Notes under the pieces: model-generated
Seen by the model: only the letters and a program-made list of their open reading frames with translations
The model's database searches: none
Told to the model about the DNA's origin: nothing
DNA from: Apostichopus japonicus
Taxonomy: Eukaryota > Echinodermata > Holothuroidea > Aspidochirotida > Stichopodidae
NCBI RefSeq assembly: GCF_037975245.1
Contig: NC_092576.1
Span: forward strand, 3,727,001 to 3,791,000
Reading direction: 5' to 3'
DNA: 64,000 nt
Part shown: positions 15,105 through 63,494 of the stretch, in pieces
Position numbering within the stretch: the first letter of the stretch is position 1
How the letters are laid out: each line of letters opens with the position of its first letter
Program-made: the position numbers and the translations under genes

Positions 15105-15109
15105 TATAT

Positions 15110-17377: not shown

Positions 17378-17557
17378 CTAGGGCAAGATCGTGCAGGAGT
17401 TACCATCAAGAGTAGGCATATATCTTTGTGGAATCACACGGTAGCCATGTTGAATTTCTCTGAGCTGGAACATATACCCAGTACAATATCTAACATGGAG
17501 TCCATTATAACGTTGCTGCTGCAAACATTCCTTCATCATGTCATACAGATGGGGAAG
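17378..17557 (-). CDS. Terminal exon of an unrecognised gene
   Basis: A 60-codon exon (59 residues and TAG at 17380-17378) following the acceptor TCACTTTAG. It starts in phase 0 with LPHLYDMMKECLQQQRYNGL and ends MPTLDGNSCTILP. Amino-acid composition and the absence of stops in this AT-rich background support coding. The upstream exon at 18159-18224 ends in phase 0 and joins in frame. I do not recognise the protein. The peptide has many Tyr, Gln and Arg and no membrane segment. Gene continuation upstream is uncertain (see the microexon candidates). Confidence 0.65.
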   Translation of the reverse strand, partial: LPHLYDMMKECLQQQRYNGLHVRYCTGYMFQLREIQHGYRVIPQRYMPTLDGNSCTILP

Positions 17558-17576
17558 CTAAAGTGACCCTATGAAT

Positions 17577-18158
17577 AGCTGTAAGGTAATGTACTAACAG
17601 AACACTTTGCAAGCCTTACCTTCACAGCCTGATAGCTAAATAGCTGCAAAGTGATGTACTTACAGAACACTTTGTAAGCCTAACCTTCACAGCCTGATAG
17701 TTACATAGAGCTGCAAGGTAATGTACTAACAGAACACTTTGTAAGTCTTACCTTCACAGCCTGACAGTTACATAGAGCTGCAAGGTAATGTACTAACAGA
17801 ACACTTTGCAAGCCTTACCTTCAGAACCTGATAGCTACATAGAGCTGCAAGGTAATATACTAACAGAACACTTTGTAAGTCTTACCTTCAGAACCTGATA
17901 GCTACATAGAGATGCAAGGTAATGTACTAACAGAACACTTTGTAAGTCTTACCTTCAGAACCTGATAGCTACATAGAGCTGCAAGGTAATGTACTAACAG
18001 AACACTTTGTAAGTCTTACCTTCAGAACCTGATACTGTAGCTACATAGAGCTGCAAGGTAATGTACTAACAGAACACTTTGCAAGCCTTACCTTCACAGC
18101 CTGATAGCTACATAGAGCTGCAAGGTAATGTACTCACAGAACACTTTGTAAGCCTAAC
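17577..18158 (-). repeat. Array seeded by an exon 3' end and donor, 67-bp units
   Basis: Nine units including the real exon border. Each carries, on the minus strand, AGCTATCAGGCTGTGAAG or the variant ending GTTCTGAAG, directly followed by a donor (GTAAGG, GTAAGA or GTTAGG). The first 18 bases equal the 3' end of the exon at 18159-18224. The rest of the unit (CTGCAAGGTAATGTACTAAC on the plus strand) is intronic. Confidence 0.9.
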
Positions 18159-18224
18159 CTTCACAGCCTGATAGCTTTTTGGGCAACCAATGTATTCATA
18201 CAGTCTTGTAGTGATTGAACAAGG
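18159..18224 (-). CDS. Internal exon of the unrecognised gene
   Basis: A 66-nt exon between the acceptor CTTAACTTTAG and the donor GAAG|GTTAGG. It is phase 0 at both ends and encodes 22 residues beginning PCSITTRLYEY and ending PKSYQAVK. It reads directly into the terminal exon at 17557. Its last 18 nt are repeated eight more times in the downstream intron, in copies that mostly have the stronger donor GTAAGG/GTAAGT-like sequence, so the original donor is weaker than those of its copies. Confidence 0.6.
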
Positions 18225-18338
18225 CTAAAGTTAAGTACCATCACATAATACCTTAAATGTTCCACTTTACATCCTTTGTTGGACTACCATATATATCTAT
18301 GTGTGATTCCAAAGAATGACAAAAGATAACAGTAAACA

Positions 18339-18343
<5 letters not shown>

Positions 18344-18421
<78 letters not shown>
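18344..18421. repeat. (TA)n microsatellite
   Basis: About 39 TA dinucleotides without interruption. Confidence 0.98.
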
Positions 18422-18423
<2 letters not shown>

Positions 18424-19090
18424 TTGTCGATGTTAAATTAATGTAAATCAGAAACTAGGGAAACAATAGGGAAATAGAAACCTGACATTCAGAGTACTTA
18501 ATATATTAAAGTAAACACTTGAAATGATCTGCCTTCTTCAGCAATCTCATGGTTGGTACAATTGAAAAGGAGAAGGTTAAACACAAAAATGGTGCGAGAA
18601 TATAAATGGGAAACTCTTGAGATTTCAGGGATCTGTGGAGAGTGTAATGTGTTTAGTCAGTCGATGTGTTTGTTGAGTCTAAACACTTACTCTACTTACT
18701 ATACCCTAGTGTTTAAATTTCTGCCAAGGGAGAGTAAGAATACAGTAAACAGCAAGAGATTTTATTGACAGATTGGCAGGAACTCAAGGTTATCATGGAC
18801 AAATCATTTAGGATACTGTCTGTAAAACCTTCACAAGATCTACCTGTGATGATGTTATTTAATACATGTAGTACTCTGAAAGTCACTATGTTAAGTTACT
18901 ATGCATCTGTTCCTTAACTGGTTTAAGATTTATAATATAAATCGAGCTCACATGCACTCCTGTACACATACATATTAAAGAGTGAAACGACATCTATATA
19001 GATCTGATATGCAGCTACCATTCATCACAATATGTGGCTTTGATAGGCTAATAATAGACTCAGGCAAAGAGTACCTTAGTATTACTGTAC
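18422..19090. other. Intron, possible retroelement tail
   Basis: No confident exon. The minus strand near 18545-18480 reads GCTGAAGAAGGCAGATCATT beside the TA repeat. This resembles the start of the retroelement tails elsewhere in the window but lacks their stem and GAAA. Confidence 0.35.
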
Positions 19091-19111
19091 CTCCTTCACA
19101 TCCAGCATCAG
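19091..19111 (-). CDS. Candidate 21-nt microexon
   Basis: CTGATGCTGGATGTGAAGGAG between ATTTGTAACAG and GTACAG. Phase 0 at both ends, it would add LMLDVKE before the exon at 18224. Supported only by borders and phase. Confidence 0.3.
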
Positions 19112-19597
19112 CTGTTACAAATATATTTACAGAGTAAAAATTCAGTCCGTTCAATGACTATGCTACATAAAGAATGATCATGATGCATCAAGAGGTAAAA
19201 CTATGTAACACTTCTTAAACAACTATCAGCACTACTCTGTAAAGTGATTCCTCAACGTGTTGATCACCAAAGAGTTCAACACTTACATTCTTTCACTGAC
19301 CAAGCAAGGATTCAAGAATTACTGCCAGCATGTAATCAATTAAGCAAGATTGATTAACAGTGGGTGGTCACAAGCTGAAAAATTTTCTTAAGAAACTAGA
19401 AAATTTCAAGTTTGACATTAATCCCTCTGCCTTTTTCGATATTTTCTGAGTACTTTGGGGAAAGTGGAAAACCACATGAACTCATGCAGAATGGCCAAAT
19501 AATGTTCCAGAAACATTAATGTCACATGGTCAATTGCTGACATCTGATATCGACAAATTTAATGTGAATGAAAAAGTATCCTCTATGTTCTAGTTAC

Positions 19598-19622
19598 CAG
19601 GAACTCCACGCATTTGTAAACT
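19598..19622 (-). CDS. Candidate 25-nt microexon
   Basis: Lies between the strong acceptor TATTTTTGACTGTCAG and the donor GTAACT. Its phase fits the candidate at 19091, adding VYKCVEFL after a split codon. Confidence 0.3.
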
Positions 19623-20106
19623 CTGACAGTCAAAAATAATTGAGTAACATTGAAATATACAGTTTTGTACTATGTAATGAGATACTAACATGTATTGGCC
19701 TAGCCTAAGCACAAGTTTTTCAATTTCTTGTATAAGCAATGTTCTATCAAACTGAAAATTGTGATGAATTTTCATTCCTTTCTCTCATGGGCCATCTTTC
19801 AATACACATAAAATCGTTAAATGACAAACTTGATGAAAAAAAAACCCAGACTCAGACAACGATATGATGTATCAAATTAGTTCTTATCAAATTAGGAACG
19901 CTTTGATGGTTGCAATTTGTTACTTATATTTATACCTTGTTTCAATGTAACCTGCCTTCCATATTTCTATTATATTTGTAGCCAGTAATCTTTCTGTCTA
20001 TGTAACATGTGTTCTTTAGAAGTTTTAGGTGATGCACATTACAGAAGTTGCACAATACCTCAGGCTTCCATGAGCATCTACAATATTGGCCTTAATTGCC
20101 TCTCAC

Positions 20107-20151
20107 TTCAAGATATTTGCTATTGCACTACCCTTTTGACATCTGCTTCCA
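20107..20151 (-). CDS. Candidate 45-nt exon
   Basis: Lies between ATATCTTTTAG and GTGAGA. In the only open frame it gives GSRCQKGSAIANIL and ends in phase 2, which fits the candidate at 19598. The chain of three small exons is internally consistent but unproven. Confidence 0.28.
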
Positions 20152-20690
20152 CTAAAAGATATTACGATACAGCTATGTGCTGTTTGAAACATTCAACCTA
20201 TTAAAAATGTTATTTACTACTTATTTATAGTTAACTATAGTTGATCAATGATACTCATTATTAAACTTGAGCTATGAGCTGTTTGAAACACTGGATATGT
20301 TAAATAATGGGATTTTAGTATTTACCACCGTTTAATAGCTGATGAACACTACTCTAAACATGTTACACATTTATGTCCTGAAAAGACCACAATAACAAGA
20401 AATTTGGTAGTTGAAGAGACAAGGGGGATCTGCCATGGATGCAGTCAATACATATATTTAAAAATATTTGAAATATGGTAGCTATTAACGAGCTGTTTTT
20501 GACTGGATCTGCATAGCAAAACACCAAGCTACGGTAGGCAAGAATTAAGACTTCTTAACATTATCTAAAAATTCATCAAGATCAAGTATTGTAGACTACT
20601 TGGCTGTATATTCCAGCTGTGGCTCCTTGAATGCTATTTTTTTCTACTGGTTTCAGTCAATTTATCAAAGGTATTTGATACTAAAATCCT
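20152..20690. other. Nothing firmly supported
   Basis: AT-rich. One short minus-strand frame (around 20610-20560) reads ILDLDEFLDNVKKS then stop, without a good acceptor. Confidence 0.4.
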
Positions 20691-20694
20691 ACAA

Positions 20695-21930
20695 TAGTTA
20701 TGACTAATACCCCTTAACTTGTGTTTTACTTTTCATTTCAACTACTCCATATTTATGACTAATACCCAATAACTTGTGTTTCACTTTTTGTTTCAACTAC
20801 TCCATATTTATGACTAATACCCCATAACTTGTGTTTTACTTTCTATTTCAACTACTCCATATTTATGTCTAATACCCCTTAACTTGTGTTTTACTTTCTA
20901 TTTCAACTGCTCCATATTTATGACTAATACCCCTTAACTTGTGTTTTACTTTCTATTTCAACTACTCCATATTTATGACTAATACCCCATAACTTGTGTT
21001 TTACTTTTCATTTCAACTACTCCATATTTATGACTAATACCCCATAACTTGTGTTTTACTTTCTATTTCAACTACTCCATATTTATGTCTAATACCCCAT
21101 AACTTGTGTTTTACTTTTCATTTCAACTACTCCATATTTATGACTAATACCCCATAACTTGTGTTTTACTTTCTATTTCAACTACTCCATATTTATGACT
21201 AGTACCCAATAACGTGTGTTTCACTTTTCATTTCAACTACTCCATATTTATGACTAATACCCCTTAACTTGTGTTTTACTTTCTATTTCAACTACTCCAT
21301 ATTTATGACTAGTACCCAATAACGTGTGTTTCACTTTTCATTTCAACTACTCCATATTTATGACTAATACCCCATAACTTGGTTTTTACTTTTCATTTCA
21401 ACTACTCCATATTTATGACTAATACCCCATAACTTGTGTTTTACTTTCTATTTCAACTACTCCATATTTATGACTAGTACCCAATAACGTGTGTTTCACT
21501 TTTCATTTCAACTACTCCATATTTATGACTAATACCCCTTAACTTGTGTTTTACTTTCTATTTCAACTACTCCATATTTATGACTAATACCCCATAACTT
21601 GGTTTTTACTTTTCATTTCAACTACTCCATATTTATGACTAATACCCCATAACTTGTGTTTTACTTTCTATTTCAACTACTCCATATTTATGACTAGTAC
21701 CCAATAACGTGTGTTTCACTTTTCATTTCAACTACTCCATATTTATGACTAATACTCCATAACTTGTGTTTCACTTTTCATTTCAACTACTCCATAGTTA
21801 TGACTAATACCCCTTAACTTGTGTTTCACTCTCTATTTCAACTACTCCATATTTATGTCTAATACCCCTTAACTTGTGTTTCACTTTCTATTTCAACTAC
21901 TCCATATTTATGACTAATACCCCTTAACAT
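20695..21930. repeat. 55-bp minisatellite
   Basis: About 22 copies of a 55-bp unit, TTTCAACTACTCCATATTTA then TGACTAATACCCCATAACTT and GTGTTTTACTTTCTA. Variants (CCCTT, CCAATAACGTG, TTTTCA) form multi-unit patterns. Confidence 0.97.
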
Positions 21931-22184
21931 TTGATTGTCCTCATTTGTATGAAGTTGGCATACTTTACAACATATTGAATACATTAACAGCAATGGCAGT
22001 GGGCTTGATAACCAAACAAACAAACAAACCTCTGAATCACAAATCAAATTCATCAAACCCACTCTGAAAGGATAAACCACAGATAAATTAAAAATGCATA
22101 TAATTGATATCAGAAACATGAAACAGCAAAGAAACAGCACATCAACATTCTCCCAAATTCCAAACTACAAAACAAAAGTTTTGT

Positions 22185-22294
22185 TATAAAAACAAACTGC
22201 GGACTTTTATTGCAAAGTAATTACCATGGTAACATAACATTTTTGGCCTTTGTTTTTATCTTTTAGTCCGTGGTGAAGTAATCAGTGAAGTGTC
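22185..22294 (-). promoter_or_regulatory. 3' UTR and polyA signal of the adenylate-kinase-like gene
   Basis: On the minus strand AATAAA lies at 22211-22206, about 85 nt after the stop codon at 22295. A short 3' UTR is therefore likely. Confidence 0.6.
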
Positions 22295-22322
22295 CTATGA
22301 TGTCGCCATTACATGTGTGGAC
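22295..22322 (-). CDS. Adenylate-kinase-like gene, exon 9
   Basis: Last exon. Acceptor TTCTTTTAG, phase 2 in, then STHVMATS and TAG (22297-22295). Very short, so its choice rests on acceptor, phase and the nearby polyA signal. Confidence 0.6.
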
Positions 22323-25300
22323 CTAAAAGAAACATAAGAGAAGATCATTTAGCAAAATAATAAAAATATGAAATTGTGATTCAAGATTCATTTTAAGACT
22401 CATTTTAAGAGTTTATTATTGGCATTAACCTAGGTATGGTCTAGAAGACAAATGGTTAACAGAATTTATCACTTTATAAGTAAGATTATCTACCTTTCTC
22501 CTCTAAATATTATCAGCAGTTCTATGGCAAACCTCATTATACCTCTCACTGCATTAGAAATCTGCTACTTAAGGTGGCATACTCCTATTAGCGTCTATAT
22601 CCATCCGCCGCAAGTGTTCTCCTTCAGGAAAAGTGCCAATTAGGAGCAGGAGAACAACTTTTTTTCTATGTTATCAATTAGGATGTGCTTTTTTGTGGCT
22701 TAAGATGTTAAAGAACAATGGAAGCACATGTGGTTAAAAAATGGGGGTAAATTGAGGCAATTTTAGACCAGTTTAGCCCTCCCAGGAGCAGCGTACAAAG
22801 ATTGTTTACGACTGAGTAAAGAGGTTTGTTTACAAGTGACGAAAAGTTCCGGCTCTCGTAGCAAAAAATCTGCACGGTCATGGTACGGAAAATTGATGGT
22901 GCCATGAAAGACCAACTTGTCAGCTATCCAGTGATGGGTAGCGTTTAGCAAGTGAAAACTTCTATCTAGACTTAGAGAACACATTACTTTTGTGATTTAG
23001 TGTGTAAGTCAATGGGGCTTTTAATGGGTGTATGCTACCTTAGTGGGGAAAGTTGGTTTCCCTATCTCATTTGACTTCTTTCTGCATTAGAAAACTGGAA
23101 CTTCTCTTTTATTTCCTGTCATGAAAGAGGGTTATGATCAACTCACCTTGTTAAATCTCTCTCCTTACTCATGAGATCAGCTATTTTATGACACAGGTCC
23201 GTGTTAGTGTCTGATGAGAACAGACAGACTTCATTCTCTGTGCTGGCAACAGCTTTGAACGTCACCGGGTACAGGCTGTTTTTTCGACTTCTGTCTTTCT
23301 TTTCGTTGCTGATGAATATAAACTTGTCCAGGTAGGTGTTCTCAGATTCAAAGAATTTAATTTGTCTTTTGGTCTGGGGGAAGAAGGAAACAAAACTTCT
23401 AGAATGTAATCAATTGGATATACAGGATTTTTGGCAATTAATTAGATAAGGCCAGTTGCTTGAATGGCTTCCCTTGCAAAGAGAAGAGAGGCTAAGAAAT
23501 GTTTAATGGCTAATAGAAATTGTATGTAAATTGGCTGTTCTTGAGACATTACTGCCTTTTCTTCTTGTGGTGGTCCTATGACCTAACTTGTATACAGCCC
23601 AGACACTGCGGGCAAATATTCTGTATTGTCCTCTCACGTACTGAGAGAGGTATGTAACCTGTATATGGCCCACATACTCCTGATAGTCCTCTCAAGTACT
23701 GAGAGAGGTATGTAACCTGTATACAGCCCACATACTCCTGATAGTCCTCTCAAGTACTGGGTGTGGTATGTAACCTGTATATGGCCCACATACTCCTGAT
23801 AGTCCTCTCAAGTACTGGGTGTGGTATGTAACCTGTATATGGCCCACATAGTCCTGATAGTCCTCTCAAGTACTGAGAGAGGTATGTAACCTGTATACAG
23901 CCCACATACTCCTGATAGTCCTCTCAAGTACTGAGAGAGGTATGTAACCTGTATACTGCCCACATAATCCTGATAGTCCTCTCAAGTACTATGAGAGGTA
24001 TGTAACCTGTATAGAGCCCACATACTCCTGATAGTCCTCTCAAGTACTGAGAGAGGTATGTAACCTGTATAAAGCCCACATACTCTGTATTGTCCTCTTA
24101 TGCACTGATTTTTCTATACTGTTGATTTAACAGCTAACATCTTTTGATCTTGACTCACCTCACCCACAGGGCAACGGCTTAGCGTGGTCTCTGTACAATC
24201 AACCACAAATGATTCAGCAAGAGGGGCTGATGTGTCTATCTTGTGACAGAGGGCAGTAATCAGTTTCTCCTGAAGTAAAGAAAGAAAAGGGAGCACAATA
24301 TGTTGAATTAATACCTATTCAGTAAGCTGCTCATTGCTTTGTGTGATTTAAGTCATACATTTGGTACAAAGAATCTTTAACATAAAGAAGAAAGAAAGAT
24401 TTTCTACCAAATCAAATAAAACAAACATTTTGTAAGATTGGTCAATTTCAGGTCTTCCATATGATATCCGTCCACACACACACAGTCACAAAATACTTAC
24501 TAATGGGGCATCGCTTTTATCCACAAAACTGACCAATTTCAGGTGTTCCATATCTGTCCATATTCTAACATACACACAGTCGCAAAATACTTACTAATGG
24601 GGCATCCTTTTTATCCACAAGACTGGCCAATTTAAGGTGTTCCATATGATATCTGCTCAAATCCAAATCCTGAAAAGCATGATCATCTGCAAGAAAGAAG
24701 CAACTTTGATCAATTCCACAATATTAGGCAAAGATCATGTTAATTTGCTGGTGAGGAATTTGTTTTTTAATTTGTTTTCAGTTAGTTGCTTGTTGTGATC
24801 CACCAACCAATGGAATGGGGTTTCATGCTCCCAGTTGCAGTGGTTATAACCATGTTCTTCTCACACTGCTACCATGTCATCATGTGATAAAGGGTTGCTT
24901 CAGATGGTTTCATGGAAGTATGAGGTTTCACGCTCCTAGTTGCAGTGGTTATAACCATGTTCTTCTCACACTGCTACCATGTCATCATGTGATAAAGGGT
25001 TGCTTCAGATGGTTTCATGGAAGTAAGGGGTTTCACGCTCCTAGTTGCAGTGGTTATAACCATGTTCTTCTCACACTGCTACCATGTCATCATGTGATAA
25101 AGGGTTGCTTCAGATGGTTTCATGGAAGTATGAGGTTTCACGCTCCTAGTTGCAGTGGTAATAACCATGTTCTTCTCACACTGCTACCATGTCATCATGT
25201 GGTAAAGGGTTGCTTCAGATGGTCTCATGGAAGTAAGTGGTTTCATGCCCCTTAGTTGCAGTGGTTACAACCATGTTCTTCTCACACTGCTACCATGTCA

Positions 25301-28300
25301 TCATGTGGTTAAGGGTTGCTTCAGATGGTTTCATGGAAGTATGAGGTTTCACGCTCCTAGTTGCAGTGGTTATAACCATATTCTCCTCACACTGCTACCA
25401 TGTCATCATGTGATAAAGGGTTGCTTCAGATGGTTTCATGGAAGTATGAGGTTTCACGCTCCTAGTTGCAGTGGTAATAACCATGTTCTTCTCACACTGC
25501 TACCATGTCATCATGTGGTAAAGGGTTGCTTCAGATGGTCTCATGGAAGTAAGTGGTTTCATGCCCCTTAGTTGCAGTGGTTACAACCATGTTCTTCTCA
25601 CACTGCTACCATGTCATCATGTGGTTAAGGGTTGCTTCAGATGGTTTCACGGAAGCCTCTATAGCGGAGACTGGAGCGACTAGCTGTTAATTCATTTGAC
25701 CCTCCATAAACACTCCATAGGAGTGTTATCTCAGTGGTTAACGCCGGTGCCTATCAATCATAAGGGCCCCCGTTAGAGTCACTCCCAGATTAATGTATAT
25801 GTCGTCCAGTTACAGAGTTGTTGACAATTAACAATTCATAATCATGGATGTTAAATATGAATGTAAGAGACTGATTTTGGTCAGCTTGCAGCTTTGATAA
25901 GCCAATGAGGCTTCTTCGCGAGTTCCTGCTTGAGGGAGGATTTAAAATACATACATACGCACACACATACACCCAGACACATTACAATATAAATCAGTGA
26001 TTACACAGAATCATCAAAACCAACCACACATCCTCTTATACATCCTGAGAACTTTCTATCCAAGTTAAACTTACCAAAAGCAAATACAATGACTGTATTA
26101 ACTGTCTTGTCAGGCACCAGCTCTAAATCCTGTCCAAAGAAATCGCTGACTCTATGCCAAATGAGATCACCGATACCACATGAGACATCTACCACCACAA
26201 GTCTGTTTCTCTCCTTGAAGAAATTTAAAGACCCTTTAACACTCTGGGCGTAGATGGCATGCCGTCTCTGACAGAAGAAGAAGAAACAACAAATATACTT
26301 GAAAATTGACTTAAAGGGAGTGAAGACTCACGTACAAAGAAACATCTGATGCTGGTAATCTGACCTAGTTTCGAATGAGGTGTAACAGAAGTGTAAGACA
26401 CCACCATCGATCCCAGAAAATACACACACAGCTTGCCACAGTCGGTAAGTAGACACTAGTGTACAGTCAATACATGTATGCAGCTACGGTCAATACCCAC
26501 AACACAGTGTACATAGCAGCGATGGACATCTCAGGTCCAGATAAAAATAACAAGGTATCACATTTCATTACTGTCTGCATTTTGTATCGACAAGAAACCA
26601 ACTTCACTTGCAAGCAACGGAAAGTTAACTTTTTTCAGAGGGCGGCACGTGGTTTGGGGGAGTCTTAAATGCCTTTGAAAACTGCAAACAAGAATTGTCT
26701 TCTTAGTATGATTATTGTTGGGAGCCAGTTAATATTTATAAATATCACAACATTTCAGAAATTTCAAGTAACAGCCTCTGAAGAAGATCCTGCTAGGATC
26801 GAAACGTCAACTTACTTTTACACATTCTATTACACAGGCTCTCTAGTGGATAAGCAGTTTGCTAACAGTTTTATTTTATTTTGATTTAACATTTCAGTAA
26901 TTGGCAGCTTAATTATAGGTTATTCCTAATGGGCTGCCTTATACCCTTCTAACTCATCTCATCTATATCCCTATATCTACAGTCATACTACTGTACTTTT
27001 GTCTCCTCCCCGTCCCCCGTACACCTTCTCATCGTCCCCCTTTTTCCTCTTCCCGTTTCGCCCCTCCCCTGTCCCCCTTTTCCCCCATCCTCCTTCTCAG
27101 CATCCTTGCACCTCTTTCATATCATCAGACCTATGGTTCCTGTTTATTTATTGACTTACTTGTGTCCTGGTAAAGTCAGCTTCATCACTCTGCCCCCCTT
27201 CTCCACTTCTTCCCTGTCACCCTTCTCCCCCGCCCCCCCCCTTCTCCCCGTCCCCATTCTCCCCGTCCCCATTCTCCCCCGTCCCCCTTCTCAGCATCCT
27301 TGCACCTCTTTCAGATCATCAGATCTATGGTTCCTGTTCATTTATTGACTTACTTGTGTCCTGGTGGAGTCAGCTTCATCACTCTGCCCCCCTTCTCCCC
27401 TTCTCCCCTGCCCCCCTTCTCCCCCGTCCCCCTTCTCCCCCGTCCCCCTTCTCCCCGTCCCCATTCTCCCCCGTCCCCCTTCTCCCCTGTTCCCCTTCTC
27501 AGCATCCTTGCACCTCTTTCAGATCAATGTTTCCTGTTTATGTATTGACTTACTTGTGTCCTGGTGGAGTCAGCTTCGTCGCTCTGCCCCCCTTCTCCCC
27601 CCATCCTCCTCCCCCGTCACCCTTCTCCCCCGACATCCTTCTCCCCAGTCCTCCTTCTCAGGATCCTTGCACTTCTTTCAGATCATCAGATCTATGGTTC
27701 CTGTTTATTTATTGACTTACTTGCGTCCTGGTGGAGTCGGCTTCGTCGCTCTGCCCCCCTTCCTTCATCTTGTCTGGGTGTTTAGCTCCATGAGCCTGTA
27801 CCTCCTTAACCGCTTTCTGCTCAGGAATGCTCAGATTCAACGCAAAGCAATCAGGAAACTGACACAAGAAATAATGATGAATGTTAATTGACTTATTAAC
27901 TATTAAATGTTCAACTATGTGAATAAGAAGTTAATTTCATACCTGTCATGAATGTTTGCTGTTAACACCCACACTGTAACTGTAGACTTTACTAATCAAA
28001 TCTCATATTTGCTAAATACTCTGTTTTGTTTTTTATAATGAAGGAAAATTTCAAACAGTTACAACTTTCTCAAGTCTTAAAGCCTTAGCTGGATCAAATG
28101 CAATATTAATCTGCTAATTAATCAGCCCATGTGGTAAAATTATCGGAAAAAGATTAAAAAAAAAAGAAAAAAGAACTTTGAAAAGATGCTTAGATATTGA
28201 AGTTCTGTTTCTGTTGCACCAGACTACAGATTTAAATTTCTGTGATCTTAAGATTAATTCCTGTGAACATCTTTGGTATATGACTATACAAAAATTAAAC

Positions 28301-31300
28301 GATGGCTCATCAGACCACAAAAAAAGTCTTAGCTGCCCAAAATACTAACCTTCTCGCAAAACCTCTTCAAATGATAATCTGGTTCCTGAAGAAAATTTTC
28401 ACATCTAAGCAGGAATTTGAGGTTAGGTACAAGATCTATAAGATGCATTGTCTTGGGTTCCAGCTGAAGTTCAGTTGCTATCATGTCAATCACCCACTCA
28501 AGGTCAAGAACACTAGGATTATCCTGAAAGACATTTAATAAAATATAAACAAGTTATTATATTTGCAGGTCATGATATTACACAGTGATACCAAATCAGC
28601 AGCCTACCGGGCCTAAAGTTAACCACATGTATGGTGATTGGGTATTAAGGCCCTTTTGGCCATAGACTTTAACACCCAGCCAGCCTCTATCTTTATCACA
28701 TTACTCAATATCTAGGTAGAACAGCACCATACAATATGGTCACACTTTGGATCACTCTGAAAATGAATTTAGACAACCCTTGATATGGAGTATTTGTATA
28801 TATACTACTATGCAAATCCTAAAAATGCATCTGTTACTCCTTCCTCCATAGTTTGCAAAGATTAATTTTGATTCTTGCATAAGCCAGGACTTTGGTTGTG
28901 TACTACAGGTAGTATGGAACAACAAAATGCCATTGTGTAACACATGTGTGTATTAGTGTAGTCACCACATACAGGTACACTAAGAACATCATGTACTGTA
29001 CACATGAATGTTTGCATTTAGTGTGTCACCACATGTATACTAAGAACATCATGTACTGTACACATGGATGTGTGTATTAGTGTAGTCACCACATGTTACT
29101 AAGAACATCATGTCATGTAGTTAGTACATATCTTGTGTAATACATACTTTCTCCATACTTGTCATATAGTTAGTACATATCTTGTGTAATACATACTTTC
29201 TACATACTTGTCATATAGTTAGTACATATCTTGTGTAATACATACTTTCTCCATACTTGTCATATAGTTAGTACATATCTTGTGTAATACATACTTTCTC
29301 CATACTTGTCATATAGTTAGTACATATCTTGTGTAATACATACTTTCTCCATACTTGTCATATAGTTAGTACATATCTTGTGTAATACATACTTTCTACA
29401 TACTTGTCATATAGTTAGTACATATCTTGTGTAATACATACTTTCTCCATACTTGTCATATAGTTAGTACATATCTTGTGTAATACATACTTTCTCCATA
29501 CTTGTCATGTATATTTATTACATATTCTTGTGTAATGCATACTTTCTTCATACTTGTCATGTATAGTTAGTACATATCTTGTGTATTAATACATGATATT
29601 TATACATTCATTCAATAGTATACTGTTACAATAGTCTCCACTGCCAAGTCAAAGTGAATTAACCCATTGAATTCATCAATTTATCAGCAATGATTGTCAA
29701 AGAGTAAGTTACCAACTGTACATGTTACATCCAGTGGCTCCCCTACAGGGCATCTTTTAAGTGTCATGTTCTATGTAATACACATGTTCTGGTTGTCACG
29801 AACCACATTGTGACAGTTATTAGATTAGCTCTCATTCCAGAACAAACGTACACCTCTGACTGGATTCACTGTGCAGATGTATACACACAATTAATGTGAC
29901 ATTAACTGCTTGCGACCGATGTGCTGTGGTTAATGGGTGTCATCAAACACACTAGACTGTCGAGTTTGTAACAGACTTGTCAAATGAAATAATAACTACA
30001 GTATGGACAGCACTTCAATTTGTTGTTTTGCGATCATGTGTCTTTAAGTTCATCTGGCAGGCTTACAGATAAACATGTACAGAGAGGATTAGTAATTTAA
30101 TTGCTAGGTAGTACTGTGAAATAGACGTATATATAGGTTGAGACTAGTGGAACACTAGTAGTTGTTACTCAGAGTTTCATGCGTTGAGCGATCGTCAGAC
30201 AACTCATATAGATACATATCAAGATAGATAGGAATAACGGAAAAACTGTTAAACGACTATGCTGCATTTAGAGAAAGGCTGGATCTTGAGTGAGATACAA
30301 TAATTAAACTAAGTAACTGATTGGAGGTAAAACAGCCAATGTTTGGTTTTTGCAGAGCTTTCGAGCAAAACTAGCTCTTTCCCATCCTTCCCATGCCCTC
30401 TACCCCGCCCCTCTTTACATCCTTACATGCCACTGGTGTAACTGTTAATATGATATAGTAGCAAGTAAATCGACTTCACTGATCTGGTACTGGTCATGCA
30501 TGTAGAATACACTGTACCGTATAGCTTATCATTACATCGCAAAGTGTGATTGGCTGTCCAGAGGTTGACACGGTAGACCTACAATATGTAATTTATTATT
30601 CAAATTAATGAGGGCTGTTCTACAATGCAGTATTTCAGGACAGGTATGTGGATACTGAAACTACCATTGCATTGAAGGGGTGTACAATCTGGTGTGACCT
30701 TGTGTGCAGGTCAACACCCCTTGGGAGTGTGAGGCAGGACTCCAGGGGGTACAAAGCTATAGACATCTAGACAAATTACACTAATGAGTAAGAACAGAAA
30801 TTCAATCATTCTAATAATTTGTTATATTTAATGGACAATTATGTGCCACAGAGTCTATGAAGTTAAATTGTGTCCAAAAGGTTTTCAGGTTCCCCCCTCT
30901 GTTGACCTTAAATGACCTTTGATCTTCACAGAAAAGACATTAGGTTCTTGGATCAATAGGACCGATATATACCAAGCACGATAATCATCCGCAATGAATG
31001 TCTTTTTCTCCATCATTTCTCTTCTCCATCCCTTGTCTACTAATCCCCTTACATCTATCTCTCTGTGTTCACTATGCTCATTAACCTGTCTGTATTCTGT
31101 GTATGTATTTGTCCCTTTTGTTACTGTTACTTGTCATTCAGCCTCTGAAGAAGATCCTGCTAGGATTGAAAAGTCAGGCCAACTAATACTTTAACACATT
31201 CTCCTACACAGGCTCTGTAGTGGATTTAGCAGTTTGCTAACAGTTTTATTTTACTTTGATGAATGTCTTTAGTTAGTGTAAACTTACACAGGTGTCACAT

Positions 31301-34300
31301 ATATAAATAGTAATACACACACACACATCAACATTAATTGATTAATTGTGTGTAGATGGGACATTATTTTCTCATCTGTTGTAACTACCTATAAATACCC
31401 ACACACATTGTGTGTAGATTGGACATTATTTTCTCATCTGTTGTAACTACCTACAAATACCCACACACATGGTGTGTAGATGGGACATTGTTTTCTCATC
31501 TATTGTAACTACCTATAAATACCCACACACATGGTGTGTAGATGGGACATTATTTTCTCATCTGTTGTAACTACCTATAAATACCCACACACATTGTGTG
31601 TAGATGGGACATTATTTTCTCACCTAGATTTGTAACTACCTATAAATACCCACACACATTGTGTGTAGATGGGACATTGTTTTCTCATCTATTGTAACTT
31701 CCTATAAATACCCACACACATGGTGTGTAGATGGGACATTGTTTTCTCACCTAGATTTGTAACTACCTATAAATACCCACACACATGGTGTGTAGATGGG
31801 ACATTATTTTCTCATCTATTGTAACTACCTATAAATACCCACACACATTGTGTGTAGATGGGACATTATTTTCTCATCTATTGTAACTTCCTATAAATAC
31901 CCACACACATTGTGTGTAGATGGGACATTGTTTTCCCACCTATTGTAACTTCCTATAAATATCCACACACATTGTGTGTAGATTGGACATTATTTTCTCA
32001 CCTAGATTTGTAACTACCTATAAATACCCACACACATTGTGTGTAGATGGGACATTGTTTTCTCATCTATTGTAACTTCCTATAAATACCCACACACATG
32101 GTGTGTAGATGGGACATTGTTTTCTCACCTAGATTTGTAACTACCTATAAATACCCACACACATGGTGTGTAGATGGGACATTATTTTCTCATCTATTGT
32201 AACTATCTATAAATACCCACACACGGTGTGTAGATGGGACATTGTTTTCTCATCTATTGTAACTACCTATAAATACCCACACACATGGTGTGTAGATGGG
32301 ACATTGTTTTCCCACCTATTGTAACTTCCTATAAATATCCACACACATTGTGTGTAGATTGGACATTATTTTCTCATCTGTTGTAACTTCCTATAAATAC
32401 CCACACACATTGTGTGTAGATGGGACATTGTTTTCCCACCTATTGTAACTATCTATAAATACCCACACACATTGTGTGTAGATGGGACATTGTTTTCCCA
32501 CCTATTGTAACTACCTATACATACCCACACACATGGTGTGTAGATGGGACATTGTTTTCTAATCTAGCTGCTGTAACTACCTATAAATACCCACACACAT
32601 TGTGTGTAGATGGGACATTGTTTTCTCACCTAGATTTGTAACTACCTATAAATACCCACACACATGGTGTGTAGATGGGACATTGTTTTCTCACCTAGAT
32701 TTGTAACTACCTATAAATACCCACACACATGGTGTGTAGATGGGACATTGTTTTCTCACCTAGATTTGTAACTACCTATAAATACCCACACACATGGTGT
32801 GTAGATGGGACATTATTTTCTCACCTAGATTTGTAACTACCTATAAATACCCACACACATTGTGTGTAGATGGGACATTATTTTCTCACCTAGATTTGTA
32901 ACTACCTATAAATACCCACACACATGGTGTGAAGATGGGACATTATTTTCCCACCTATTGTAACTACCTATAAATACCCACACACATGGTGTGTAGATGG
33001 GACATTGTTTTCTCATCTGTTGTAACTACCTATAAATACCCACACACATTGTGTGTAGATGGGACATTGTTTTCTCACCTAGATTTGTAACTACCTATAA
33101 ATACCCACACACATGGTGTGTAGATGGGACATTGTTTTCTCACCTAGATTTGTAACTACCTATAAATACCCACACACATGGTGTGTAGATGGGACATTAT
33201 TTTCTCATCTATTGTAACTACCTATAAATACCCACACACATTGTGTGTAGATTGGACATTATTTTCTCACCTAGATTTGTAACTACCTATAAATACCCAC
33301 ACACATGGTGTGTAGATGGGACATTGTTTTCTCACCTAGATTTGTAACTACCTATAAATACCCACACACATTGTGTGTAGATGGGACATTGTTTTCTCAT
33401 CTATTGTAACTACCTATAAATACCCACACACATGGTGTGTAGATGGGACATTATTTTCCTACCTATTGTAACTACCTATAAATACCCACACACATGGTGT
33501 GTAGATGGGACATTATTTTCTCATCTATTGTAACTACCTATAAATACCCACACACATTGTGTGTAGATGGGACATTGTTTTCTCATCTATTGTAACTTCC
33601 TATAAATACCCACACACATGGTGTGTAGATGGGACATTGTTTTCCTACCTATTGTAACTACCTATAAATACCCACACACATGGTGTGTAGATGGGACATT
33701 ATTTTCTCATCTATTGTAACTACCTATAAATACCCACACACATGGTGTGTAGATGGGACATTATTTTCTCATCTATTGTAACTACCTATAAATACCCACA
33801 CACATGGTGTGTAGATGGGACATTATTTTCTCACCTAGATTTGTAACTACCTATAAATACCCACACACATGGTGTGTAGATGGGACATTGTTTTCTCACC
33901 TAGATTTGTAACTACCTATAAATACCCACACACATGGTGTGTAGATGGGACATTGTTTTCCCACCTATTGTAACTTCCTATAAATACCCACACACATTGT
34001 GCGTAGATGGGACATTATTGAATAAGTTTGATCTTAATAGTTTTTACTCTCTCTTGTAATATTATTCAAATCAGTTGATCTTATTTGATAACTTTATACT
34101 CCAGGTCTGTAACCTCCTGGTTAATATCACACAATAAGTAACAAATATGATAATCCCCCCCCCCCAATTGGGGATGTGGGATGTTACCTGTTATAATATG
34201 TTCACTCTAGGGGGGGAGAGAGGTAGAGAGAGAGAGTTCTGAGGTTGAAGCAAGCAAGGAAGGGGAGTAAACTTGACAACAACAGAACTTACTATACATA

Positions 34301-54920: not shown

Positions 54921-54926
54921 GATCCT

Positions 54927-55068: not shown

Positions 55069-55364
55069 CTGGGGAAGAACTTTCGGTCAGACTTTCTTTC
55101 TCCAAAAAATGTATAGACCTCTTTGATATGCCTTAAAACTAACCACTGAGGTCTAAGGTTTTTTTTGGGGAGGGGGGAAGGGGGGTGGGGTTTAACCCCA
55201 GATACCCTATATGGGCATTGCATTCAACACCCCCACCACACCACCCCTCTGATGTAACCTTTTCAATCCACCTATGGACTGTCCACAACAACTTTCATGC
55301 CTCTACAAAAATCAACCAATTGTAGCAAAATTTGATTTTGTTCCCTCCACTAATGCTATATGCA

Positions 55365-57180: not shown

Positions 57181-57184
57181 CTTA

Positions 57185-57565
57185 TTATTGATTGTATCAG
57201 GGGCAGCAATATATGTATTATGATGTATGCAGCAATATCTACAGCAATATCATATTGTAAATGTGTACAGTAATTTATGTATTGTAATGTGTACAGCAAT
57301 ACATGTATTGTAATGTGTACAATGATATATATATATATATATATTTATATATTGTAATTTATACAGCAATATATGTATTGCAATGTGTACAGTAATTTAT
57401 GTATTGTCATATATACAGCAATACATGTATTGTAATGTGTACAATGATATATATATATATATATATATTGTAATTTATACAGCAATATATGTATTGCAAT
57501 GTGTACAGTAATTTCTGTATTGTATAGCAATACATGTATTGTAATGTGTACAGTAATATATCACC
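57185..57565. repeat. 27-bp-like repeats with TA runs
   Basis: Repeats of ATGTATTGTAATGTGTACAG with CAATAT or TAATTT, interrupted by TA runs near 57330 and 57450. A further block follows at 57811-57930. Confidence 0.88.
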
Positions 57566-57659
57566 AAAACAGAACTAGTATTGTTCGATACAGGTGACAA
57601 ACGCCAATAGTGGAATTACGACCTTCCTTACTGGTTTCGAACCTCTGGACATACAATCA

Positions 57660-57811
57660 GCGCCCATAGCCTAGTTCTTAGGGATGTCCGCATATAAAGC
57701 GGGAGGCCCGGGTTCGAATCCCGGTGGAAGCTGGAATTTTTTTCACTGTTATGGATTTTACAACTCATTACGATTTCAATTATATTTATATATATATATA
57801 TATATATATAT
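57660..57811 (+). mobile_element. tRNA-derived SINE with (TA)n tail
   Basis: The head 57660-57731 folds as a tRNA-like shape. The T-arm CCGGGTTCGAATCCCGG is perfect, the anticodon arm is CCGC-ATATAAA-GCGG (anticodon position ATA), and the acceptor is only 5/7 paired. The body TTTTTTCACTGTTATGGATT, TTACAACTCATTACGATTTC ends in a TA run. The second copy, at 9902-9995, proves it is interspersed. Confidence 0.82.
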
Positions 57812-57930
57812 TGTAATGTATACAGACATTTATGTATCGCAATGTATACAGCAATTCATGTATTGTTATGTAAACAGCGATTCATGTATTGTTATGAAAA
57901 ACAGCAATTCATGTATTGTTATGTGTAAAG

Positions 57931-59455
57931 GCCAGTCGTTTACGCAAGGCACCAGTAAGACTACGTGCAAACTTTAAAGATGGCGACATGGTTTCTAGCA
58001 GGGTCTTGTGACAAGTGTAATCATTCCTAGAATCAGAAGAGGCTGATTAGTTGCCATATACACTGTTTGATATATACACTGTCCTCAGTGTAACTTTATC
58101 AATGTTTGCTACGTAATGTCTAACTATTACCTTTGAACATGGTACATCAAGGTCCCTACAAAAGAACTGATTCTAAAGAATTAGGTTAGTTAATGAAGTT
58201 TAATATTAAACCATAAAGAATACTGATATATACTGCAGCAATAAACTAACTGAATATTTGCAGCTGTATATGGATCTAATGGATACAGTCCCTAGTGTAG
58301 ACATTAAACAGTCTGTCTTTGATGAGAGCTGCAAGTAAGCTTGTTTTATACAACACCTAATTGTATTCTGGTCATTTGATTGGTCAATTGCTCGTTGATT
58401 GCATGCAAAATCTGCTCTATTCCACTCTATGAAATTGAACCATGGGTTATACTCTTTTGGTAGCACTTTTTTCAATGGTAAGAGAGCAGAGAAACATGTC
58501 TGTTCAAAACAATCTGTTGCATGACTGCATTTTACCCATCTTAATATAATATGTTGCGCCTCGTTGAATGGAACAAATTACATCTTTCAACTCGTGAGAT
58601 ATTTGCACTATTGCACGAATGGAAACCATTCATTATTTGTATAATATTCCATGGCCTCTCTCTCCTCCACTAACGAAGACTGGCACAATGATGATGGCCC
58701 AGATCACAGTCCTTCCACTCTTGTTCTAATCATATGTAAATTACAATACCTATTGCGATGGATTTGTGGCATAGGTTAAATGTTTGTATTTGTGATAAAA
58801 AAGGACACAGAGTTACTGAACGTCTTAGCCATCTGCTGTGACCTTTCGTACTTTGTACTGTTCATTAACTCAGGTAGTTTGGGAGTCTGTACGCTGTATG
58901 TAAGCTGTATGAGTCTGTACGCTGCAAATATAAATGGATGCTTATATCCTGAGTAAACTTGGAAAAGGATGAAGATTGGAGAAAGGATGAAGAAAAGGAT
59001 GAAGATTGGAGAAAACAGATGGGCATGGAGAATAAATATGATAAAAGGAAGTTAACCAAATCTATATATAATGCTAATGAAAGAAGAATGGTTATGATTT
59101 GCACTAACCCTGGGAATACAAATGTCCTAAAATACATGAATATGCAGTAGAAATGGTTCTAAGCTACTAGACTGTTGTGATAAATGAAAGAAAACATAGA
59201 AAAACATCAAATGTAGAATCATGAAATGAATAAATGAATGTAATCTAAGCATATACAGATACTGGAATAGAGACCAGAATGTTTTGAGGCAAATGTCAAA
59301 CTTTAGGGATAAACAAGTTGATTTTAAGCATTTTTAAAATATCATTATATGACAAATGTGGAACAGAAGGATAAATCAAATAATACCATCTGAGAATCAC
59401 CGAGAAATGGAATACAGAGTCTACTTAAATCTAAAATAGAAGATTTCTTTGGAAG
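57931..59455. other. Intergenic, nothing recognised
   Basis: AT-rich. A GGATGAAGATTGGAGAAA duplication lies at 58965-59010. The minus-strand frame at 58206-58475 is not convincing. Confidence 0.5.
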
Positions 59456-59458
59456 AAA

Positions 59459-60325
59459 CTTATAATGCTACAACCATGTGGAGTCTACTGTGATGATTAA
59501 TACAATACTAACATACCTATGACATTGCTAGTTGATATTTATCCTCAAGGCTCCATCTGTCCAGTTGTATACAAACTTATAATGCTACAACCATGTGGAG
59601 TCTACTGTGATGATTAATACAATACTAACATACCTATGACATTGCTAGTTGATATTTATCCTCAAGGCTCCATCTGTCCAGTTGTATACAAACTTATAAT
59701 GCTACAACCATGTGGAGTCTACTGTGATGATTAATACAAACTAACATACCTATGACATTGCTAGTTGATATTTATACTCAAGGTTCCATCTGTCCAGTTG
59801 TATACAAACTTATAATGCTACAACCATGTGGAGTCTACTGTGATGATTAATACAAACTAACATACCTATGACATTGCTAGTTGATATTTACACTCAAGGT
59901 TCCATCTGTCCAGTTGTATACAAACTTATAATGCTACAACCATGTGGAGTCTACTGTGATGATTAATACAAACTAACATACCTATGACATTGCTAGTTGA
60001 TATTTATACGCAAGGTTCCATCTGTCCAGTTGTATACAACCTTATAATGCTACAACCATGTGGAGTCTACTGTGATGATTAATACAATACTAACATACCT
60101 ATGACATTGCCAGTTGATATTTATACGCAAGGCTCCATCTGTCCAGTTGTATACAACCTTATAATGCTACAACCATGTGGAGTCTACTGTGATGATTAAT
60201 ACAATACTAACATTCCTATGACATTGCCAGTTGATATTTATCCTCAAGGCTCCATCTGTCCAGTTGTATACAACCTTATAATGCTACAACCATGTGGAGT
60301 CATCTGTGATGATTAATACAATTTG
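59459..60325. repeat. 117-bp minisatellite
   Basis: About seven copies with CTTATAATGCTACAACCATG, TGGAGTCTACTGTGATGATT, CATACCTATGACATTGC and CTCCATCTGTCCAGTTGTAT. On the minus strand most copies contain CATAG|GTATGT, which resembles a donor, but no open source exon was established. Confidence 0.96.
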
Positions 60326-60554
60326 ATGTATTTTTATGCAGATATAATATGCTCACTCTTTACATAACATTTCTAAACTTTAGCCATCATTTTAAGATAA
60401 AATGCAGAGAACTTTGTGAAATCTTGTACTTGGACTGGAATGAATAGCTTGTACTGTGTCTGCACTTGAAAGGAAAATAACATTGTATCTACAATAACTG
60501 AACTCCCTGCATAGAAGAGAGTATAAAGAATATTTCCCACACCTCTCCCTCCAC

Positions 60555-60665
60555 CTTCAGAAAGTGGAATAGGAGGGAAGGGGAGGGGAGGGTAGGGGAG
60601 GTAGGGGAGGTAAGGGGAGGGGAGGGGAGGAAAGGGGAGGGGAGGGAAGGGCAGGAGGGATTGGG
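60555..60665. repeat. GGGGAGG purine tract
   Basis: Nearly pure purine tract of GGGGAGG and GGGAAGG units on the plus strand. Confidence 0.95.
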
Positions 60666-61380
60666 ATTATATTACCCTTAAAAGCAGACATAAGTTTACT
60701 AACAAAGCAAACTATTTAGTCTGTATTCCCAACAGAAGACTTGCTTAAATTAACACAAAAATATTTGTCATATTTAGATATTGTACTGACCAATCAGAAA
60801 TCTGCTTATCCCTTAAATCCACCAATGGGATGAGACCAACAACATGAAGAAAGCTTGACAAAAACTGAAAACGATAAATGGAAGCCCCTTGCTTTAAGCT
60901 TAAAATGCTAATATTTCTTTTCTACTATCAAAGACCAGTTCTCTTTTGTTTTCAATAATTTAATTTAAAGTTTCAATACTATGTGTAATTCGGAATGTCT
61001 CTAGTATGTCTACAGATTTATGCTGTGTGCTCTTATGTTAACATTGTCTGTGTGAGACACTCTATCACATGTTAGATGGATTTATTCAGCTATGAAACCA
61101 TAACCTTATGACAAAATGTGAATGATTCTTTGCCTGTATTAAACCAGGATATCACATTTAGTTAAAGAACCATGCATATTCATGAGGTGAAGAAGTATGT
61201 ACATTATATGCTTCAGTTGTTACAGATCCATTTTAACATGCTGGTCTACTAATCCTATCGGATTAAGCTTTTTAGCAGCCATGATCCACCCATCTGATCC
61301 CTAATCTGATCCCATGGCTTGATCCCTGATATACTGTCATCACCTCCTGATCCAATCAGAACAAGGAAGAGACTGACTTT
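60666..61380 (-). other. 3' UTR of the RUN-domain gene and intergenic DNA
   Basis: The minus-strand AATAAA at 61086-61081 lies about 300 nt after the stop and would end the transcript there. Otherwise unique. Confidence 0.5.
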
Positions 61381-61487
61381 TCAGAAGGCATCCTTTATGG
61401 CAGTGAACTGCTTGACAGCGAGGTCCGCAGGCAGATGGAATTTCAGTTCGTTGAGTTTATCAAGAATCTGAAGCACACTGTCAAACT
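61381..61487 (-). CDS. RUN-domain protein, last exon
   Basis: Follows the acceptor CTTTTTCTCTGTAG in phase 1. Encodes FDSVLQILDKLNELKFHLPA and DLAVKQFTAIKDAF, then TGA (61383-61381). The LPxDLAxKQ and IKDAF pattern fits the end of a RUN domain near the C terminus, as I recall for RUNDC1-type proteins. RUN domains bind small GTPases or motor adaptors; which one here is unknown. Confidence 0.75.
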
Positions 61488-61929
61488 CTACAGAGAAAAA
61501 GAACAGTGAAAAGAAATCATGATACATGTCAAAATAAAAGTTTAAGACTCTGATTGATTGGTTGAAATGAATTACCTACCTTACTGCTTAGTAGTCATGT
61601 AGGAATATGTGACTTACTTGATGCAGCCATGTATTTATAAGTAGTATAGTAATTGATACAGACTAAGTCATATGTACCTTACTTAAAACAGCCATTTAAT
61701 AATAAGTATCTCACTTGATACAGCCTTGTATTCACAAGTACTTGATACAGTAATGTAGTCATAAGTATCTTACTAAGACAGTCAAGAAGGAATGGGTATA
61801 CTTACTCCAGGAAGGTTGGTAGAAGTAAGAATCATACTCGATACACTCAAGTAGTATTAAGTACCATACTTGATATATCCATGTTGTAATAAGAATATTA
61901 CTTGATACAGTTTTGTAGTCATAAGTAAC
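61488..61929 (-). other. Intron of the RUN-domain gene
   Basis: Contains loose repeats of ACTTGATACAG and TAATAAGTA spaced irregularly, probably decayed copies of the adjoining array. Confidence 0.5.
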
Positions 61930-61959
61930 TTACTTAGTACACTAATGTAATAATGAGTA

Positions 61960-62310
61960 TTTGTACTTGATACACACACGTAGTAATATTAATTAGGACT
62001 TCATACAGAAATGAGTATTGTACTTGAGTAATATGCAGTAATATGTTTGTTACTTGATACAGTATTTTAGTAATAGGTAACTTACTTGATGTAGACATGT
62101 AACTCCATGATAAGTAATTATTCTCTATCAGGTACTTGACAGAGTCTTGCAGTAATATATATGTTACTTGATACAGTCTTTTAGTTATAGGTAACTTATT
62201 GATGTAGACATGTAACTCCATGATAAGTAATTATTCTCTATCAGGTACTTGACAGTCTTGCAGTAATATGTATGTTACTTGATACAGTCTTTTAGTAATA
62301 GGTAACTTAC
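61960..62310 (-). repeat. Array seeded by the middle RUN exon and its donor, 112-bp units
   Basis: Two clear extra copies of the last 53 nt of the exon at 62311-62405 plus its donor region. The donor is intact in the copy at 62085-62080 and broken by a one-base deletion near 62194 (CATCAATAAGT instead of CATCAAGTAAGT). More decayed pieces extend left. Confidence 0.88.
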
Positions 62311-62405
62311 TTGATGTAGACATGTAACTCCATGATACGTAATTATTCTCTATCAGGTACTTGGTCTTGTAGAGGTGTTTACACCAGACTGACAACTTCC
62401 TTTGA
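62311..62405 (-). CDS. RUN-domain protein, middle exon
   Basis: 95 nt between the pyrimidine-rich acceptor CTTGTATTATTCAG and ATCAA|GTAAGT. Phase 2 in, phase 1 out. Encodes QRKLSVWCKHLYKTKYLIEN then NYVSWSYMSTS. A second AG six bases further in would drop two residues. Trp and Tyr spacing fits the core of RUN domains. Confidence 0.78.
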
Positions 62406-62950
62406 CTGAATAATACAAGGAGGAAATGTTTGACATAAGTAAAACAAAATCACACAAACGCAGCAAACTATTGTACTGACCTCTGACACACTAATTGTTT
62501 ACAAATGATACGAAAAATGTGGAATTAAAAAAGCATTGAAGCAAAACATGTGATGGAAGGTTATTACCTATCAGTACTGCAATCATATATCTAATTGATG
62601 TAAGCTTGATGATTAAATATTAATAATCAAGAACATTTTCTGGTGTTAATATAACACAGGTGTTCTGTAGATATAATATGTACATTACCTATATTGTATT
62701 TTATTCTACAGTTTTACTACATATTATGTGTCATATATTTTTTTACTGTTACATAGCCTTTTAGAGCACTTTTGTGGATTTTATGCTTCATAAAATAAAT
62801 TATTATTATTATTATTATTATACTTTGCTGTTTAGTTATAGCTCATGTAGGTATGTTTATTATACAATGCTGTTTAGCTACTGTTCATGTTTATTATACT
62901 ATGCTGTTTTGTTACTGTTCATGTAGATATGACATGCTCATTACAGCGTG
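62406..62950 (-). other. Intron of the RUN-domain gene
   Basis: AT-rich with an ATT microsatellite at 62797-62822 and a three-copy TTTATTATACTATGCTGTTT repeat near 62820-62920. Confidence 0.6.
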
Positions 62951-62954
62951 TTCT

Positions 62955-63303
62955 ACAACTCACTTCAGGGCTTCACAGAAGAGGGCCTTGAACCTGGACT
63001 GTGTGCTCGTTCTTACAGTTTTACAACTCACTTCAGTGCTTCACAGATCAGGGCCTTAACCCCAGACTCTGTGCTTATTCTTAATATTTTACAACTCACT
63101 TCAGGGCTTCACAGATCAGGGCCTTCAACCTAGACTCTGTGCTCATTCTTACAGTTTTACAACTCACTTCAGGGCTTCACAGATCCGGGTCTTGAACCTA
63201 GACTCTATGCTCGTTCTTACTGTTACATAACTCACTTCAGTGCTTCACAGATCAGGGCCTTGACCCTAGACTCTGTGCTCATTCTTACAGTTTTACAACT
63301 CAC
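62955..63303 (-). repeat. Array seeded by exon 3' end and donor, 67-69-bp units
   Basis: Five extra copies of the last 43 or so nt of the exon at 63304-63494 with donor and about 25 nt of intron. Minus-strand donors GAA|GTGAGT lie at 63303-63298 (real), 63235-63230, 63167-63162, 63099-63094, 63030-63025 and 62963-62958. All six are intact. Spacing is 67-69 bp, not a multiple of three. Confidence 0.95.
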
Positions 63304-63494
63304 TTCAGGGCTTCACAGATCAGGGCCTTGAACCTGGACTCCGGGCTTCTCTTCAGAGGGTTGTGAGATTCCTCTATTGCATGAATCGTTGCCAGTAGAA
63401 TCTGACGGGAGGTAATAGCAGTCCCACCGACAATGTTCAGATCAAATGCCTGGGAGAGACACCTTGCTGGAGACTCGGAAAACTCTTTCCCATG
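63304..63494 (-). CDS. RUN-domain protein, upstream exon
   Basis: 191 nt between CTTTTATACAG and CTGAA|GTGAGT. Phase 0 in, phase 2 out. Encodes HGKEFSESPARCLSQAFDLN, IVGGTAITSRQILLATIHAI and KRSPESRFKALICEALK. The helix LLATIHAIEESH followed by FKALICEAL is the RUN-domain N-terminal pattern. Earlier exons lie beyond the right edge. Confidence 0.82.

Follow-up and report, generated by a model that had tools for sequence, protein, structure and literature searches.

Does the 3′ border of an exon seed tandem arrays by a process of its own? The question is raised by a 64,000-nucleotide stretch of DNA (contig NC_092576.1, positions 3,727,001 to 3,791,000 of the forward strand; hereafter the window), in which five exons are followed by tandem arrays whose unit joins the exon end, the splice donor and the start of the downstream intron. 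An earlier note on this sequence had read the arrays as one-directional, always at the 3′ border and never on the acceptor side, and had known of no described process with such a bias. By sampling exons elsewhere in the genome we found that acceptor borders are affected as well, that the donor excess is mild, about 3:1, the polarity being a bias and not a rule, and that an unknown process is not needed for the arrays. They are probably minisatellites of the type called mirages in lancelets, born in place within introns in the ordinary way, filtered by splicing and seen here in an array-rich window.

Exon-border arrays in the window and in a genome sample

Periods were determined with Tandem Repeats Finder, array extents by self-alignment and splice sites, which are plain, by separate reading, and all five arrays were found where the earlier note had placed them, extending from exon 3′ borders into the downstream introns (Table 1). 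The border segment, i.e. exon end, donor and intron start, recurs downstream in 5/5 arrays with 79–97% identity, and self-alignment of the 12 window exons examined, which include one terminal exon without a donor and one apparent first exon, yielded five donor-spanning and no acceptor-spanning arrays. The five units are unrelated to each other in period and sequence, which bears out the statement that they differ completely, and the further donors in the arrays at 63304 (five) and 27721 (three) read GTGAGT and GTAAGT, respectively, in every copy. The array at 24595 has only about two copies, and the polarity of that at 18159 means little because the array fills its entire intron. The stretch 27013–27762 is in addition a two-level repeat, with a C-rich 16-bp minisatellite nested within the 167–200-bp exon-border unit.

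Genome-wide searches were made with two of the five arrays, and a dispersed mobile repeat or introner, i.e. the same unit at many loci, was not found for either: the 18159 array matched its own locus only and the 62311 array its own locus plus a further 50 bases within its own intron, with the caveat that missing matches in this tool do not prove rarity. These two at least therefore look home-grown.

Outside the window, we sampled 216 exons that encode parts of myosin heads, dynein heavy chains or kinesins from a genome of 671.6 Mb in 35 contigs. They were located by family search, and the stretches were picked by exon density from the match lists before any sequence or repeat was inspected; the stretches cover 40/70 myosin, 85/85 dynein and 46/126 kinesin matches among those listed and, being picked for dense exons, over-represent short introns. 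Self-alignment of border segments identified donor arrays at 10/216 exons (∼5%) and acceptor arrays at 3/216, so that the theme recurs in unrelated genes, while the claim that acceptors are never affected fails. The acceptor arrays E, L039 and L047 carry 2, 1 and 4 intact upstream acceptors, respectively, with matrix scores equal to that of the true acceptor. In L047, a kinesin exon start, five near-identical acceptors stand 42 bp apart at 2428–2596 (gene orientation), as a mirror of the donor arrays.

The comparison of donors with acceptors by self-alignment, which the earlier note had suggested and which was run here on these 216 exons, thus bears out a donor excess of about 3:1, but a modest one (10 versus 3, sign test P = 0.046 one-sided, 0.092 two-sided). 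Across six parameter sets the counts ranged over 8–10 donors and 2–4 acceptors. When the sampled regions were shuffled five times, 32 short self-matches turned up but no border array in 5 × 216 exons; the weakest donor array, L035, aligns over 58 bases at 78%. Window and sample together amount to 15 versus 3 (two-sided P = 0.008), of which the window, having raised the idea, is the discovery set. The window is moreover an outlier, with donor arrays at 5/12 exons versus 10/216 in the sample (P = 0.0004), and 24% of its non-exon positions tested lie inside a repeated copy versus 9.7% (2,128/21,956) in the sample.

Exon edges in the sample were set from family matches and a generic splice matrix, with flagged exons inspected by eye; 3 acceptor and 2 donor edges of 216 had no identifiable splice site close to where the match ends. 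Before reading, the automatic count stood at 5 donors and 1 acceptor for the 75 myosin exons, and at 6 donors and 3 acceptors for the 142 rows of dynein and kinesin. Reading dropped L024 (donor 1517, array from 1533), L030 (donor 3047, array from 3089) and the L039 donor at 2737, which was re-placed at 2690 with the array from 2713; L033 8785 and L039 646 were added after donor re-placement, and one L039 row, a copy of an exon part, was removed along with its acceptor flag. Four such rows of exon-part copies (two at E, one Lr and one L039) are excluded from the 216. The dropped L024 array begins at +16, just past its donor and without covering it.

Table 1. Exons and exon-border arrays of the window, and border arrays of the exon sample (a slash marks the exon–intron boundary)
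Feature	Position	Strand	Remarks
RUSC/iporin-like gene, exon	63304..63494	-	donor after 63304 (GAA/GTGAGT)
Array at donor 63304	63347-62950	-	68-bp period; exon's last 37-43 bases, donor and intron start
RUSC/iporin-like gene, next exon	62311..62405	-	donor after 62311 (CAA/GTAAGT)
Array at donor 62311	62372-62034	-	109-113-bp period; about 3 copies, each unit with 52-61 exonic bases
Adenylate-kinase-like gene, exon	27721..27858	-	donor after 27721 (CAA/GTAAGT)
Array at donor 27721	27762-27013	-	167-200-bp period; exon end, donor and intron
Adenylate-kinase-like gene, another exon	24595..24686	-	donor after 24595 (TTA/GTAAGT)
Tandem duplication at donor 24595	24647-24443	-	94 bp, about 2 copies, 52 exonic bases
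Third gene, exon	18159..18224	-	donor after 18159 (AAG/GTTAGG); open frame
Array at donor 18159	18176-17574	-	67 bp, about 9 copies; occupies whole intron
Third gene, next exon	17404..17557	-	directly after array-filled intron; splice sites and open frame
Sample donor arrays, myosin	B 4536, B 8359, I 7397, Lr 5148, F 17151		border segment copied downstream
Sample donor arrays, dynein and kinesin	L022 779, L033 3102, L033 8785, L035 1635, L039 646		border segment copied downstream
Sample acceptor arrays	E 13939, L039 2999, L047 2597		border segment copied upstream

Splice signals in the copies

Most of the decoy donors are intact. When the donor copies were scored with a generic matrix, leaving the 24595 border unscored, GT was kept in 8/8, 5/5 and 3/3 window copies at 18159, 63304 and 27721, and in 22/24, 15/15, 13/14 and 9/11 copies at F 17151, L033 3102, L022 and B 8359 of the sample, respectively; among the 10 copies counted at 62311 is an unrelated 32-base similarity. 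Copies weaker than the true donor make up 6/6 of those found at B 4536, 5/14 at L022 and 5/15 at L033 3102, the donor copy of L039 has lost its GT, and no copy passed the scoring threshold at L035 and L039.

An in-frame stop precedes the second donor in 12 of the 15 donor arrays (5 window and 10 sample), which counts in favour of the splicing filter proposed below; for B 4536, which is without a single period, the stop was scored before the first similar copy (+56 versus +163). Use of the next donor would extend the protein in frame at L022 (66 bp) and L033 8785 (72 bp), and would shift the frame at L033 3102 (52 bp). Such loci are natural tests of splice-site choice among many near-equal sites, as exemplified by the myosin intron of F 17151, in which 24 donor-like copies, 22 of them with GT, stand behind the true donor.

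Array placement within introns and the origin of the donor excess

Arrays occur in about equal numbers near the two ends of introns, and what differs is how often they cross the border. Of 30 wholly intronic arrays, the quarter of the array-collapsed intron next to the donor holds 5 and that next to the acceptor 12, an unevenness that is not significant (Kolmogorov–Smirnov test versus uniform, P = 0.16), and when crossing arrays are counted too, the donor end has 14 and the acceptor end 15. The border is crossed by 9/14 of the former versus 3/15 of the latter (Fisher P = 0.025, post hoc), and a crossing test on 140 bases gave P = 0.043 with 3/18 acceptor-side arrays crossing. Behind donors, array coverage rises from 10/216 at the border to 16/215 at +60, 19/213 by +120 and 20/213 at +140; before acceptors, it rises from 4/216 at the border to 8/216 at −60 and 18/215 at −140. 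The donor signal is short, while the acceptor signal is longer, with a branch point and a pyrimidine tract, and the slower recovery of coverage on the acceptor side fits this difference in length. The distribution of arrays within introns and the coverage profiles both speak for a filter, though each was noticed only afterwards. Exonic bases make up 0.20–0.65 of the unit, and never more, in the 15 donor arrays of window plus sample (Kolmogorov–Smirnov test versus uniform, P = 0.03), with some of the periods ambiguous.

From these observations we infer a mode of duplication, a choice of donor and a selective filter. A short tandem duplication would arise in place, anywhere in introns, and its copy number would then rise and fall through slippage or unequal exchange. 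Where the unit lies over a donor, the complete exon with its own donor would remain the first copy and the surplus exon ends and donors would land in the downstream intron, so that the exon-proximal donor would be used and the gene would still work. Where the unit lies over an acceptor, extra complete acceptors would stand upstream of the true one and could be met first, and for this reason fewer acceptor-spanning alleles are proposed to persist. The donor excess would then mainly reflect what splicing lets through, which, as part of the explanation as a whole, we consider probable.

Expected counts were derived by placing one unit uniformly in each array-collapsed intron (42 arrays, 179 introns; L033 8785, at the last exon of its stretch, is outside the 179). 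This procedure supersedes a null based on plain coverage, which was rejected; under the latter, 10 donors stood against 18.1 expected (P = 0.012) and 3 acceptors against 18.7 (P = 4e-7), both for so few, with expectations overstated by copy number because the true border lies in the first copy of an array only. Upon collapsing, donors become slightly high instead of low.

A number of results weigh against filtering by splicing as the explanation. Under unit placement, 5.2 arrays are expected per border type, and the nine sample donors sit above that number (P = 0.057 for so many; the value was 0.13 with 8 donors until B 4536, with 18 exonic bases, was moved by hand from internal to donor-spanning), whereas the three acceptors are not significantly low (P = 0.20); in the window, 5 donors stand against 1.26 expected (P = 0.002). 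The 140-base crossing result would weaken if plain coverage were used, which gives 4/18 acceptor-side arrays crossing. The three acceptor arrays with their intact upstream acceptors are evidently tolerated, and in the 18159 array 7/8 downstream donors (GTAAGG or GTAAGA) outscore the authentic GTTAGG by the generic matrix, which a simple donor-strength rule would not predict. The use of the first donor is itself a prediction from sequence. Donors may therefore exceed random placement, but outside the discovery set the excess is not significant, and a count of 10:3 is too small to decide between a selective filter and a moderate bias toward donors.

A donor-directed process of the kind that the earlier note had proposed, in which an R-loop, transcription pausing or an exon-end nick followed by slippage or templated repair would seed the arrays, draws on the counts of 10 versus 3 in the sample and 5 versus 0 in the window, on the nine donor units where 5.2 are expected, and on some further arrays whose start coincides with a donor or falls shortly behind it, the donor staying uncovered (window 3335/3337; L024 at +16). 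It is nevertheless unlikely, given that acceptor arrays exist, that the intronic arrays show no clustering toward donors, and that coverage at the donor itself is lower than at +120; the donor count, moreover, is not significantly above uniform placement. Similarly doubtful is the broader proposal that exon 3′ ends are, during transcription, the preferred starting points of tandem duplications, with borders seeding intron growth and the acceptor cases as rare exceptions. Nor is it likely that dense minisatellites overlap borders at random and that 10:3 is chance: the two-sided sign test and the insignificance of both borders under unit placement would allow it, but the unequal crossing between intron ends (post hoc, as said), the acceptor shortfall under the coverage null (inflated by copy number) and the 5 versus 0 of the window, discovery set though it is, argue against it.

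We consider it very improbable that the decoy donors persist because they serve a function, e.g. recruitment of the U1 small nuclear ribonucleoprotein, stronger exon recognition or stop-containing isoforms. Most copies in the larger sample arrays do keep GT, but young homogenised copies would retain donors without selection, the unit, the copy number and the gene vary each time, and part of the copies score below the true donor or, in L039, have lost it. An assembly or gene-model artefact is hardly credible; some exons, such as those of the third gene, do rest on open frames only, but arrays recur at exons that match myosins, dyneins and kinesins and have in-frame splice sites. In-place birth of minisatellites with filtering by splicing is thus the explanation we favour.

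Relation to lancelet mirages and the host genes

The remark that no such process was known is not supported. Mirages are tandem repeats that span exon–intron borders in lancelets (PMC3087553, PMC3902484). The globin gene BflGb6 has the intron end and the start of exon 2 repeated, BflGb9 the 3′ boundary of exon 2, and a figure legend states that duplication is possible at both borders (PMC3087553). Earlier loci are cited, i.e. Adh3, retinol dehydrogenase and presenilin (PMC3087553), and a PGBD5 mirage is described with troponin C cited (PMC3902484). Splicing is reportedly left undisturbed by mirages (PMC3087553, PMC3902484), which accords with the filter favoured here. Haplotypes differ in mirage copy number, and it has been proposed that mirages contribute to intron gain (PMC3087553); somatic instability is a further trait of the kind.

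The present arrays resemble mirages in that the unit joins exon end and intron start (5 window arrays, and 10 donor and 3 acceptor arrays of the sample), in that its length and sequence are gene-specific (10–160 bp in lancelets, 42–220 bp here), in that many copies keep their splice signals, L039 (lost) and L035 (none above threshold) excepted, and in that donor and acceptor borders are both affected. The donor to acceptor ratio, 10:3 among 216 exons, is what the count made here adds. All the mirages in these papers have cephalochordate hosts, whereas the present host, judged by its mitochondrial code, is not a cephalochordate, a difference that concerns the host and not the structure. A literature search aimed at echinoderms found no report of border-spanning arrays in the collection searched, which is not proof of their absence in print.

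Intron gain by tandem genomic duplication is a further related system. This process, in which an exonic AGGT is duplicated, both copies are used and a new intron results (PMC3443670), likewise copies splice signals within a gene by tandem duplication; unlike there, the copies here sit in the intron beside the exon. Two other papers offered no lead, one on an earthworm metallothionein, which mentions duplicated exons missing from the transcript (PMC12783039), and one on minisatellites of C. elegans (PMC4039745). The present loci also bear on the idea that such arrays feed intron gain (PMC3087553).

The host was judged from its mitochondrial code. COX1 found its best match on a contig of 16.1 kb (C35), and among translation tables 2, 5, 9 and 13, table 9 (AAA as asparagine, ATA as isoleucine) fits it best, the COX1 motifs used for the choice being those we take this protein to carry. 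Table 9 is the mitochondrial code of echinoderms and flatworms; of the two, the protein may resemble sea cucumber COX1 and not the flatworm one. With this fit, mirages seem to occur outside lancelets too, in a probable echinoderm, which suggests that they are not peculiar to lancelets. Additional COX1 fragments containing TGA codons, perhaps of another mitochondrial or a nuclear copy, lie on contig C29 at 14745–16086 and 30842–31219.

Of the three genes to which the earlier note had assigned the window arrays, two have family support. The joined exons of the RUSC/iporin-like gene match the RUN domain (PF02759, E = 8e-17), and the adenylate-kinase-like gene matches the Pfam adenylate kinase family with E = 0.0006, below the cut-off, and a solved adenylate kinase with E = 9e-8. 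For the open frames of the third gene, the family search gave no match.

Elsewhere in the window, a minisatellite at 3337–4282 starts within a few bases of the donor after 3335 (CAG/GTATGT) and does not cover the exon; this probable exon, 3087–3335 on the plus strand, matches Calx-beta weakly (E = 0.07, below the cut-off) and has an acceptor placed by eye at about 3087. Large minisatellites at 1–2945 (28 bp × 106) and 31345–34019 (62 bp × 42) overlap no annotated exon, and a G-rich array of 41–52-bp units occupies 6088–6830, with a GC skew of 0.42 across 6001–8000.

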